This document shows positions 56,184-64,000 of a stretch of 64,000 bases of DNA, in pieces. A program made the position numbers and the translations under genes. The first letter of the stretch is position 1. Each line of letters starts with the position of its first letter. This DNA comes from Agrobacterium larrymoorei (lineage in GTDB: Bacteria; Pseudomonadota; Alphaproteobacteria; Rhizobiales; Rhizobiaceae): contig NZ_JAAMFB010000003.1 of NCBI RefSeq assembly GCF_013322225.1, forward strand, positions 124,001 to 188,000, written 5' to 3'. Under the pieces are notes generated by a model. That model was not told the DNA's origin and made no database searches. It saw only the letters and a program-made list of their open reading frames with translations.

Positions 56184-56260
56184 GCACCCGTAGCTCAGCT
56201 GGATAGAGCACCAGACTACGAATCTGGGGGTCAGGAGTTCGAATCTCTTCGGGTGCGCCA
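56184..56260 (+). tRNA. tRNA-Arg (anticodon ACG)
   Basis: This 77-base gene includes an encoded CCA end. The acceptor arms GCACCCG and CGGGTGC pair fully. The D-arm is AGCTCAGCTGGATAGAGC. The anticodon arm is CCAGA-CTACGAA-TCTGG with ACG at 56218-56220, read as ICG after deamination for CGN arginine codons. The T-arm contains GTTCGAATC. Sequences just 3' of tRNA genes are common integration sites, but no integrase or repeated tRNA end is seen downstream here. Confidence 0.98.
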
Positions 56261-61088: not shown

Positions 61089-62015
61089 ATGATCCTGTGT
61101 TGTGGTGAAGCCCTTATCGACATGCTGCCCCGCGAAAGCACGAAGGGCGAGGCAGCTTTCGCGCCCTATGCGGGCGGAGCGGTCTTCAACACGGCGATAG
61201 CCCTGGGTCGCCTCGGCGTTCCCTCGGCTTTCTTCTCCGGCATTGCCGATGACATGATGGGCGAAATCCTGAAGGATACGCTCAAAGCCAGCAATGTGGA
61301 CTACAGCCTCTGCGCCTTCTCCAACCGTCCATCCACCATCGCCTTCGTGAAGCTGGTCGATGGCCACGCGACCTATGCCTTTTACGACGAAGGCACCGCA
61401 GGCCGCATGCTTGCTGAAACCGACCTGCCGAACCTCGGTGGCGATTGTGAAGCCATGCATTTCGGCGCAATCAGCCTCATCCCGGAGCCATGCGGCAGCA
61501 CCTATGAAGCGCTACTGATGCGCGAACACGAAAAACGCGTCATCTCGCTCGACCCCAACATCCGCCCGGGCTTCATCAAGGACAAGCAGAACCACCTCGA
61601 CCGGATCAACCGCATGGCGGCCAAGTCGGATATCGTCAAATTCTCGGATGAAGACCTGACATGGTTCGGCCTCGAAGGCGATGAAGACACACTCGCCCGC
61701 CACTGGCTCCACCACGGCGCCAAACTCGTCGTCGTCACCCGCGGCTCGAAAGGTGCGGTCGGCTATACCCGGCAGCTTCGCGTCGAAGTTCCGAGCGAAA
61801 AGGTCGAGGTCGTCGACACCGTCGGCGCAGGCGACACTTTCGACGCAGGCATTCTGGCCTCGCTCAAACTCCAGGGCCTCCTCACCAAGCCTCTGGTTGC
61901 TTCGCTCACCGAAGACCAGATTGCCAAGGCGCTGGCGCTGGGTGCAAAAGCTGCGGCAGTGACGGTGTCACGGGCAGGGGCAAACCCGCCTTGGGCGAGT
62001 GAGATTGGGTTGTGA
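61089..62015 (+). CDS. PfkB-family carbohydrate kinase, probable fructokinase
   Basis: This 308-residue sugar kinase starts MILCCGEALIDMLPRESTKG. It has the first PfkB signature in AGGAVFNTAIALGRLGVPSA and the catalytic signature DTVGAGDTFDAGILASLKLQ. The N-terminal CCGEALIDMLP pattern and overall length fit the rhizobial fructokinase (Frk) group; 2-keto-3-deoxygluconate kinase is the main alternative. A textbook GGAGGAG ribosome site precedes the ATG. It is the last gene with ordinary chromosomal base composition before the reverse-transcriptase segment. Confidence 0.88.
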   Translation: MILCCGEALIDMLPRESTKGEAAFAPYAGGAVFNTAIALGRLGVPSAFFSGIADDMMGEILKDTLKASNVDYSLCAFSNRPSTIAFVKLVDGHATYAFYDEGTAGRMLAETDLPNLGGDCEAMHFGAISLIPEPCGSTYEALLMREHEKRVISLDPNIRPGFIKDKQNHLDRINRMAAKSDIVKFSDEDLTWFGLEGDEDTLARHWLHHGAKLVVVTRGSKGAVGYTRQLRVEVPSEKVEVVDTVGAGDTFDAGILASLKLQGLLTKPLVASLTEDQIAKALALGAKAAAVTVSRAGANPPWASEIGL

Positions 62016-62075
62016 GATACGTGAATTCGATATACAATCAAGGGTAGTTTAAAATGAATCGGTTAGGTCCGCAAA

Positions 62076-63761
62076 TTGACTGCAAAAACGAAGTCCGACC
62101 GCCTGCGGCGGCTGGTATCACACGGATATTTTGCTCCTGAGTTACCTCCGTGTTTTGTATCGGAAGATCTCGCCAAATTTAGAAAATTTATTTTGGGTGG
62201 TATTGACGCTCTTCCCACTGTCCAAAGTAAACCCGCATTTTACAAGTACATCACGGAACCTAGCTGGTTTTACTTTCCTAGGCATAAGAAGGATGATCGG
62301 CGGCACGGCGTTCCGAATCCGATATCATATCTTCTATTAGCGAGAACAATTGCTGAGAATTACGTTGATCTTCGCCGCAAGGCGAGGAGGTCAGGAATTT
62401 CTGCATCTCCACCGATATTTGATTGGACTGGTGCGAGGGCACTAATGCGCTCAAGCGTAGACCTTCGAGACGATTTTCGTATCGATCTGTCGTCTCGTCG
62501 TGAGGAGTATGTATCTGCGGATATTCGGGCGTTTTTTCATTCAATATATACTCACGCGATTCCATGGGCTATTTACGGTAAGAATTGGGCAAAAACTAAC
62601 CGTGGTTATCAGCATTATGGCAATCTGATCGACTTGCTATTTCGGAACTGCCAAGATGGTCAAACTATAGGTCTGCCGGTAGGTCCAGATACATCAAGGT
62701 TAATCGCTGAAGTTATTGCTTCGGCGGTGGATCAAGCACTTCGAGAAAAGATAGCAATCTCATCTCAAGATGCCTCGCGCTACATCGATGATTATACGTT
62801 GAGCGCGCCTAATGGTGAGTCCGGGGATGCTCTTATTGCTGCTTTGAGACAAGCTGCATCATATTTTGAGTTAGAGCTAAATAACGACAAGTCCGCGGTA
62901 TTTTCCACCTCGTCTAGGCAGCCAGTTGGGTGGAAGCAGTCAGTCAGAGCCTCTATTCCTAAAGGCAATCCTGACTACACAGAAATGCAGCGTTTCTTCT
63001 ACGAGATAGGGCGTATGTGTGACGCGCATCCGGAGTTGAATATTGAGAAATTTGCGTTGCAGAATGCTCGCTCAGCACTTGTCCGATCAAGCGATTGGCG
63101 TCGAATTCAAAGCCATTTGGTCAACGGATATCGTCGAAACACGAGTTTAGTTTCGTTCTTGGTCGAAATATTCATTTTGAGGCAAATCGAAAAAGGTGAT
63201 GTCGATCTCGAAAGTACCAGGGAGTTTATAGAGCATAGAATCCCAGTTTTGGCTCAGGCAAATCGTACTGGTGAAATTATTTGGCTTCTGTTCCTGAGTA
63301 TTCGTCTACAAGTTACACTTTCAATTTCGTCAGTTGAACCTCTCTTCGAAATTGAAAACCCGATGATCGCTCTTCTAGTGTCCTATGCACAGTCTCGGGG
63401 GTTATTATCAGGCGCTGTCAACCATACGGTTTGGAACAGATCCCTCAACCAACTAGGTTTGCGGGGGTCGATGTGGCTGTACGCCTATGAGAGCATCGGC
63501 CTAGGCATAAATCCAAGCCAGAGTGCGACGTTTATCGAGCAAGATCAGTATTTTCGTTTCTTGCAGATGAAGAAGGTGAGATTCTTTGCAATTGAAAAGG
63601 GCTTCGCTTCAATGTCGACTACGCTTCGCAATTTAAGAGGCGAGAATAATAGGATGAGACAATTTAGGGACGATTTTTTCGACGACTTCGTGCTCGATAT
63701 GGACGAATTAGAAGAACTAGACTTAGAGGATTTGACTATGGACGACGACCTCGACTACTGA
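62076..63761 (+). CDS. Reverse transcriptase, probable UG/Abi-type defence-associated RT
   Basis: The 561-residue protein has an RT palm with motif A EYVSADIRAFFHSIYTHAIP (Asp149), motif B DGQTIGLPVGPDTSRLIAEV (about 195-213), motif C YIDDYTL (Asp238, Asp239) and motif D-like LNNDKSAVFS. About 270 helical-looking residues follow, ending in a very acidic tail (about 528-561). There is no maturase, HNH, integrase or Cas1 domain. This layout fits the UG/Abi RTs, several of which (DRT, AbiA, AbiK) abort phage infection by protein-primed or template-directed DNA synthesis. The start is TTG 62076, since TAG at 62064 closes the frame upstream and the first internal Met is at about residue 124. The DNA is AT-richer than its neighbours, which suggests transfer. 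Subclass not assignable by eye. Confidence 0.88.
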   Translation: MTAKTKSDRLRRLVSHGYFAPELPPCFVSEDLAKFRKFILGGIDALPTVQSKPAFYKYITEPSWFYFPRHKKDDRRHGVPNPISYLLLARTIAENYVDLRRKARRSGISASPPIFDWTGARALMRSSVDLRDDFRIDLSSRREEYVSADIRAFFHSIYTHAIPWAIYGKNWAKTNRGYQHYGNLIDLLFRNCQDGQTIGLPVGPDTSRLIAEVIASAVDQALREKIAISSQDASRYIDDYTLSAPNGESGDALIAALRQAASYFELELNNDKSAVFSTSSRQPVGWKQSVRASIPKGNPDYTEMQRFFYEIGRMCDAHPELNIEKFALQNARSALVRSSDWRRIQSHLVNGYRRNTSLVSFLVEIFILRQIEKGDVDLESTREFIEHRIPVLAQANRTGEIIWLLFLSIRLQVTLSISSVEPLFEIENPMIALLVSYAQSRGLLSGAVNHTVWNRSLNQLGLRGSMWLYAYESIGLGINPSQSATFIEQDQYFRFLQMKKVRFFAIEKGFASMSTTLRNLRGENNRMRQFRDDFFDDFVLDMDELEELDLEDLTMDDDLDY

Positions 63762-63956
63762 GACAACAAATCAACAAACATCATATCCAGTATAGCGCTG
63801 ACACTGAGTGGTGTAACCGTGTCTTCGTAGACGAAGCAGCGTAATGTGTTATTTTAAATATTGAAAATGCAATTATAATCGAGGTAGCAACTGCCCTTGA
63901 TTGGAGTGAACCCGCTATTTGCGTAGCGGGTTCTGCAACTCAACAAGTTGTCGATG
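63762..63956. other. AT-rich non-coding region after the reverse transcriptase, with hairpins
   Basis: No open frame is convincing here. Possible stems are GACAC/GTGTC (63799-63822) overlapping CTTCG/CGAAG (63822-63835), then an AT-rich run (TTATTTTAAATATTGAAAAT) and the strong terminator-like hairpin at 63908. Some defence RTs use a nearby non-coding RNA as template, so this is a candidate place for one; nothing proves transcription. Confidence 0.45.
63908..63933. terminator. Perfect 10-bp hairpin, probable bidirectional terminator
   Basis: GAACCCGCTA (63908-63917) and TAGCGGGTTC (63924-63933) pair perfectly around TTTGCG. It stands between the reverse-transcriptase gene and what looks like the 3' end of a minus-strand gene at 63957. 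T-runs are absent, so it may instead be part of a structured RNA. Confidence 0.55.
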
Positions 63957-64000
63957 TTATCCCGCCAACCCCGCCAGTGCCTTCACCAGACCCTGCGTCG
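63957..64000 (-). CDS. Possible 3' end of a minus-strand gene, partial
   Basis: Read on the minus strand, the last 44 bases encode TQGLVKALAGLAG followed by TAA. GC content and codon choice return to those of the chromosomal genes, unlike the AT-rich segment to the left. Only 13 residues are visible, so neither the protein nor its reality can be established. Confidence 0.35.
   Translation of the reverse strand, partial: TQGLVKALAGLAG

Follow-up and report, generated by a model that had tools for sequence, protein, structure and literature searches.

The window, a 64,000-nucleotide stretch of DNA from Agrobacterium larrymoorei, carries a reverse transcriptase (RT) gene, and the question is which class of RT it encodes, whether it works alone and how it might act. 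The preliminary description had seen in it a stand-alone enzyme of the UG/Abi lineage, probably an anti-phage system, that could not be fitted to any named DRT class and might be a new branch. We find that the window protein is a DRT6-class enzyme (the class that we take to be UG12). The class is already named; the gene is a new intact member of it, and the class itself is not new. Taken as a whole, the locus is probably best explained as a DRT6-class defence-associated RT that was acquired horizontally as a single gene.

The features of the locus are collected in Table 1. RT motifs A, B and YIDD with D238 and D239 lie, intact, where they had been described, in a reading frame of 561 codons without stop or frameshift. 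The residues D149, D238 and D239 are present in the window protein and invariant in alignments A1 (16 DRT6 proteins, also used as the query for relatives) and A2; all other invariant residues of the alignments are kept as well. RVT_1 (36.0 bits, cut-off 29.6) is the only Pfam family at E ≤ 1, so that maturase, endonuclease and integrase domains go undetected, as the earlier reading of the motifs had it. The TTG start is credible because its aligned counterpart is the ATG start of a 63%-identical plasmid gene (L041). Of the 22 tabulated loci of the sub-branch defined below, 21 start with ATG and one with GTG. A promoter scan gave four sites (shuffle mean 2.7) and a terminator scan one (shuffle mean 2.7).

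Table 1 Features of the RT locus, in positions of the window
Feature	Position	Strand	Basis and remarks
DRT6-class RT gene, 561 aa	62076-63761	+	TTG start, TGA stop; profile and AlphaFold fold
RT motif A SADIRAFFHSIYTHAIPWA, residues 147-165; contains the catalytic D149 and, in the YTH stretch, the invariant pair Y158-T159	62514-62570	+	
RT motif B QTIGLPVGPDTSR, residues 196-208	62661-62699	+	Protein alignment
RT motif C YIDD, residues 236-239	62781-62792	+	D238 and D239 invariant in alignments
Helical C-terminal domain, about residues 286-538	62931-63689	+	AlphaFold secondary structure; fold match to DRT6, DRT4 and AbiK
Acidic tail, residues 539-561, mostly pLDDT <50, last residue Tyr561	63690-63758	+	
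Fructokinase-like gene (frk), upstream neighbour, 60 bp before the RT start	61089-62015	+	Best NCBIfam match, below cut-off
3' end of pgi (glucose-6-phosphate isomerase), downstream, runs past the window	63957-64000	-	L011 3458-5083

The class assignment rests on profiles and on fold. The PADLOC Drt6 profile PDLC03748 matches residues 8-526 with 527.9 bits (profile positions 2-497 of 511), a score well above chance level; the runner-up is the best Drt4 profile (343.3 bits), and other UG classes score lower. The NCBIfam Drt4 equivalog, at 180.5 bits, stays well short of its cut-off of 450. A single-chain AlphaFold2 model, generated from the window protein and 74 relatives, has a mean pLDDT of 93.2 and a pTM of 0.91, with low confidence for residues 540-561. 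A Foldseek search of the PDB ranks 9wy8 ('Cryo-EM structure of the hexameric DRT6') first, with a TM of 0.93 by target and of 0.82 by query, an rmsd of 2.4 and 25% identity. It is followed by DRT4/UG15 (9vdo, 9vdv and 9l9s; TM about 0.76-0.82 by target), a single-gene system with the same RT-plus-helical plan and 20% identity in the fold alignment, and then by two further members of the fold family, AbiK (TM 0.60-0.66 by target) and Abi-P2 (TM 0.55-0.60 by target). Far down the ranking are the enzymes of group II introns, AbiA, DRT9 (TM 0.33-0.34 by target), retrons, DGRs and DRT2. We assign the protein to DRT6 because the Drt6 profile is the best, the NCBIfam Drt4 score stays below its cut-off and 9wy8 is the top fold match.

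The UG/Abi lineage is borne out, as is the proposed RT-plus-helical plan; the helical C-terminal domain of the model matches DRT6, DRT4 and AbiK in fold. The view that the protein fits no named DRT class is contradicted by both profile and fold. The suggestion of a new branch does not hold at the level of a class; a well-supported sub-branch does exist, but inside DRT6. Two other affiliations, which the preliminary description had set against its own, were rejected: for a group II intron, the maturase profile TIGR04416 gives 24.3 bits (cut-off 300) and Rfam yields no intron family at E ≤ 1; for a retron, the St85-family profile gives 35.2 bits (cut-off 235) and Rfam, the one route by which an msr-msd was sought, gives no family above its gathering score other than a tRNA.

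PADLOC scans covered the window, 15 DRT6 relatives with five other RTs, and ten further relatives, which is a part of the 99 DRT6-family proteins compared below. Drt6 was the best class in all 15 relatives, each of which had been found via the Drt6 profile. Among the ten further relatives, a Drt4 profile outscored Drt6 in five (L213, L199, L197, L189 and L201), all outside the sub-branch of the window gene; inside it, Drt6 was best in the four members scanned (window, L041, L152 and L141). PDLC02177 and PDLC02179, both labelled Drt4, beat PDLC03748 on some relatives including L213, yet L213 matches the 9wy8 sequence at 712 bits. Because Drt4-labelled profiles outscore Drt6 on this near relative of 9wy8, the automatic Drt4 and Drt6 labels may be mixed.

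Relatives were collected with alignment A1, which found 421 in genome contigs, the best 80 of them giving 79 loci, and 21 loci in viral contigs; the window protein alone found no relative in the genome contigs. The phage collection held no full-length relative, and nine of its records gave partial matches. The 99-sequence counts and trees comprise 91 loci (L138-L228), the window and 15 earlier DRT6 proteins, minus eight: four with internal stops (L158, L159, L175 and L207) and four near-copies (L150, L174, L214 and L225). Four rows that are partial or have an internal stop or an odd start (L022, L023, L124 and L130) were set aside, as were the plasmid copies L042-L044 and the nine short matches from viruses (L229-L237). 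The trees come from quick searches, with no bootstrap, and published reference sequences of DRT4 and DRT6 are absent from them. In the one built from 109 proteins, the window gene belongs to a clade of 23 members with an SH-aLRT of 100 and a branch of 0.8; after removal of the last 40 residues, the clade still forms one side of a branch with an SH-aLRT of 99. Besides the window gene, this sub-branch contains 20 bacterial loci, which we take to be alphaproteobacterial, and one row each from a plasmid and a viral contig; the nearest rows come from Novosphingobium (L147), Plastoroseomonas (L138), Tianweitania (L140) and Rhizobium (L153). The window protein thus shares its best profile class, its best fold match and the single-gene layout with DRT6 (9wy8), but is only 25% identical to it, belongs to a sub-branch of its own, set off by a long branch with good support, and has a different tail end.

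The company of the relatives is often defensive but not fixed. The 63%-identical gene occurs in six rhizobial plasmid records. In L041-L044, the four that were inspected, it is directly preceded by gajA and gajB, with gajA of L044 interrupted by an IS4-family transposase gene. In L041, PADLOC scores GajA at 612 bits and GajB at 584 bits, and the three proteins downstream comprise a match to PD-Lambda-2 B, a match to PD-Lambda-2 C and one protein without any match. L139 has Gabija and the downstream genes as in L041, and L151 has the Gabija genes; in all three loci, 15 bp separate the end of gajB from the RT start, a tight gajA-gajB-DRT6 arrangement shared by relatives with 82-95% DNA identity. 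Of the ten proteins scanned beside the RTs of relatives, five match defence profiles (a distantly related Gabija pair downstream of the RT gene in L147, MzaE in L153, a type III methyltransferase in L155 and an RT-associated SLATT in L160); the other five match none. The window copy has none of the defence neighbours seen beside some relatives. This speaks against the main reading, as do its TTG start in place of the ATG or GTG of the sub-branch loci, the five neighbour proteins without a defence match and the overlap of the Drt4 and Drt6 labels outside the sub-branch.

Comparison of flanking DNA suggests that the RT gene is enough by itself. Between relatives with 66-83% identity in the matched DNA (12 pairs), similarity reaches no further than 70 bp upstream of the RT start, except in L041/L151, which have a Gabija operon in common, and no further than 53 bp past the RT gene. 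Outside the sub-branch, similarity extends 84 bp upstream and 83 bp downstream in L169/L180 (86% DNA identity), and 282 bp upstream and 22 bp downstream, with a further piece to 166 bp, in L169/L171 (95%). The window flanks have no convincing match in the flanks of relatives, and across 54-64 kb a tRNA at 56184 is the only Rfam family above its gathering score. Twelve proteins encoded downstream of the relatives' RTs lack mutual similarity at E 1e-3, and tblastn with the proteins of the L041 Gabija and PD-Lambda-2 island found none beside the window gene or in 17 other DRT6 stretches. Homologues of these proteins are sparse among the 22 sub-branch loci (close Gabija in L139 and L151, the distant pair of L147 and a weak, distant helicase in L142), so a partner does not seem to be needed; with no common downstream proteins and Gabija in few loci, a two- or three-gene system is not general. 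Because the DNA similarity of diverged relatives stops near the edges of the reading frame, a single-gene system is likely. Of the two options offered earlier, a single gene or a gene with an RNA, the first probably holds and the second finds these edges against it, as far as sequence similarity can tell.

Two readings would give the gene a missing companion. In one, the enzyme is an RNA-dependent DRT of the DRT2, DRT3 or DRT9 kind whose RNA was overlooked. A short or fast-changing RNA may lie beside the gene, one that blastn could overlook, and about 195 bp behind the RT gene (63762-63956) are noncoding; but only 60 bp separate frk from the RT start and 15 bp precede it in three relatives, no conserved flanking RNA appears by sequence similarity, the flanks are unmatched and the fold match to DRT9 and DRT2 is weak. 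We rejected this candidate and give it hardly any weight. In the other, the RT is a silent remainder of what was once a larger unit, for instance Gabija-DRT6, as the gajB genes ending 15 bp ahead of the RT in the close relatives L041, L139 and L151 would suggest, together with the window copy's lack of such a partner, its TTG start and its low G+C. The open frame of 561 codons with every alignment-invariant residue kept argues against a leftover, as does the confinement of Gabija or PD-Lambda-2 homologues, within the 22 sub-branch loci examined, to L139, L151 and L147, plus the weak L142 helicase; we consider a passenger remnant highly unlikely, if somewhat less so than a missed RNA. A horizontally acquired single gene of the DRT6 class accounts better for the locus.

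The surroundings of the gene bear on how it arrived. The description of a stand-alone gene in a housekeeping region is accurate locally, for the ten neighbours from about 52 kb of the window onwards. Four of these exceed their NCBIfam cut-offs (pyrC, pyrE, glucose-6-phosphate isomerase and long-chain acyl-CoA ligase); among the matches listed, five have only matches below cut-off (chemotaxis receptor, histidine kinase, proline racemase/hydroxyproline dehydratase-like, fructokinase-like and ABC ATPase), and one has none. The RT gene has a G+C content of 45.6% (GC3 0.45) against 60.8% (GC3 0.74) for frk and 57.9% for the window. All 39 genomes of the genus, the present one included, contain frk; of the 38 congener stretches, two have frk and pgi 160-163 bp apart and 27 have them 1.9-5.9 kb apart, and in the other nine pgi was not reached. 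The frk-pgi interval (window 62016-63956; L086-L123) is thus variable in the genus, being near-empty, filled with other genes or, here, occupied by DRT6. None of the 36 congeners searched has a full-length relative, and three have weaker matches, one to Drt3b and two to Drt8. Of 397 genomes of the order, 28 have a match to the Drt6 profile at E ≤ 1e-10, and in 11 of these it covers at least 456 of 511 profile positions (including the present genome and one with an internal stop); at E ≤ 1e-60, such matches occur in six of 385 genomes of the class and four of 398 of the phylum, two samples that overlap and contain the present genome. Given the low G+C relative to the window, the variable interval and the patchy distribution, the gene looks acquired, by horizontal transfer.

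The same genome (G000) encodes a second defence RT (contig C34; L004 1156-2589, minus strand) with Drt2 as its best PADLOC match (420 bits). Two more RT-domain matches lie on contigs C6 (L001) and C20 (L002); that of L001 is best matched by a general PADLOC RT profile (231 bits). A ResT/TelK-type protelomerase is also encoded.

What such an enzyme may do is suggested by its relatives. According to two reviews, DRT4 is a single-gene, tyrosine-primed, template-independent polymerase of single-stranded DNA (ssDNA), whose product is shielded by the phage protein ORF55 and then turns toxic; DRT6 is a structural homologue of DRT4 that is likewise activated by ORF55, with a product chemistry described as less resolved or not fully characterised (PMC13213688; PMC13314766). 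By homology to DRT6, DRT4 and AbiK, the window enzyme would work as a hexamer and make untemplated ssDNA, protein-primed from a tyrosine of its own. This product would be harmless in the uninfected cell. On infection, a DNA-binding phage protein similar to ORF55 would protect the ssDNA, which would then accumulate and become toxic, stopping growth and phage replication. We infer the hexamer, the priming and the phage trigger from relatives of 20-25% identity; an anti-phage function of the gene itself is probable.

The position of the priming tyrosine differs among the relatives. It is reported to lie in an N-terminal loop of AbiK (Tyr44), in the corresponding region of Abi-P2 (Tyr61) and in a flexible linker of AbiA (Tyr298/303) (PMC9508834; PMC11077055; PMC12483538), and the priming tyrosines of DRT9 are placed in its C-terminal tail (PMC12483538). 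Here the sub-branch differs from AbiK and Abi-P2, the best-conserved tyrosine of its N-terminal loop region, Y66, being present in 17 of 23 members. Tyr561 is placed as are the reported priming tyrosines of DRT9, although DRT9 uses an ncRNA. All 23 members have a tyrosine in their last two residues. Across the 99 DRT6-family proteins, 65 have one in the last five residues (42 of the 76 outside the sub-branch); for each of the seven five-residue bins further inwards, the number is 12-23 of 99. All ten members of a sister clade whose tails are basic have a tyrosine in the last five residues. As controls, 528 other ORFs of the same loci were taken, called mechanically with a minimum length of 250 aa and not from gene annotation. 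A tyrosine stands in the last five residues of 51 of them and in the last two of 17; among 130 from the sub-branch's own loci, the numbers are 5 and 3. Both tyrosine codons and all three stop codons are in use at the terminus, which points to constraint on the residue itself, and the tail diverges around the terminal tyrosine while the remainder of the protein aligns. Of the four tyrosines invariant in the sub-branch (Y158, Y309, Y471 and Y561), Y309 and Y471 lie in helices of the model and Y158 in a confident region, so that Y561 is the only one in a low-confidence region. This makes Tyr561, at the tip of a mobile tail, a reasonable candidate priming residue and not more, and as a starting tyrosine it would be a weaker inference than priming as such.

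A more specific proposal is that the sub-branch primes DNA synthesis at the extreme C-terminal tyrosine of a long, disordered, acidic tail, which could move into the active site of the same protomer or of an adjacent one. If true, this would be a further priming site, in addition to the N-terminal region of AbiK and Abi-P2, the RT-helical linker of AbiA and the C-terminal tail of the ncRNA-dependent DRT9, and every ssDNA product would stay tied to the tip of a mobile arm. We found no description of the tail tyrosine in the literature searched, a search that ended short of the primary DRT4 and DRT6 papers. The proposal is tentative and rather doubtful: 34 of the 99 proteins have no tyrosine in the last five residues, several DRT6 members end in phenylalanine, the last-five state must have changed 16 times or more along the tree, and Y158, Y309 and Y471 are equally invariant in the sub-branch. 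Alternatively, with the gene still a DRT6, the tail could be a docking motif resembling the tip of SSB, for host proteins that bind SSB; an exonuclease among them would hold the ssDNA product low until the phage protein shields it. The end of the host SSB (NDLDDDIPF) resembles that of the RT (TMDDDLDY), and SSB-tip-like ends occur in relatives (DDDLPF in L219, DDIPY in L216, DDIPI in L192 and DDIPL in L197). The phenylalanine ends, which could not prime through a hydroxyl, would suit docking as well as tyrosine does. The likeness to SSB rests on few residues, however, the sister clade keeps its tyrosine on a basic tail, and the sub-branch keeps tyrosine, not phenylalanine, at its end; we regard docking as improbable, and as less likely than tail priming.

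The question of class is thereby answered: the gene is DRT6, whose product chemistry the reviews call less resolved or not fully characterised. In the alphaproteobacterial sub-branch, such an RT stands alone or beside Gabija, on plasmids and on chromosomes, and the conserved terminal tyrosine suggests where enzymes of this kind may begin DNA synthesis.
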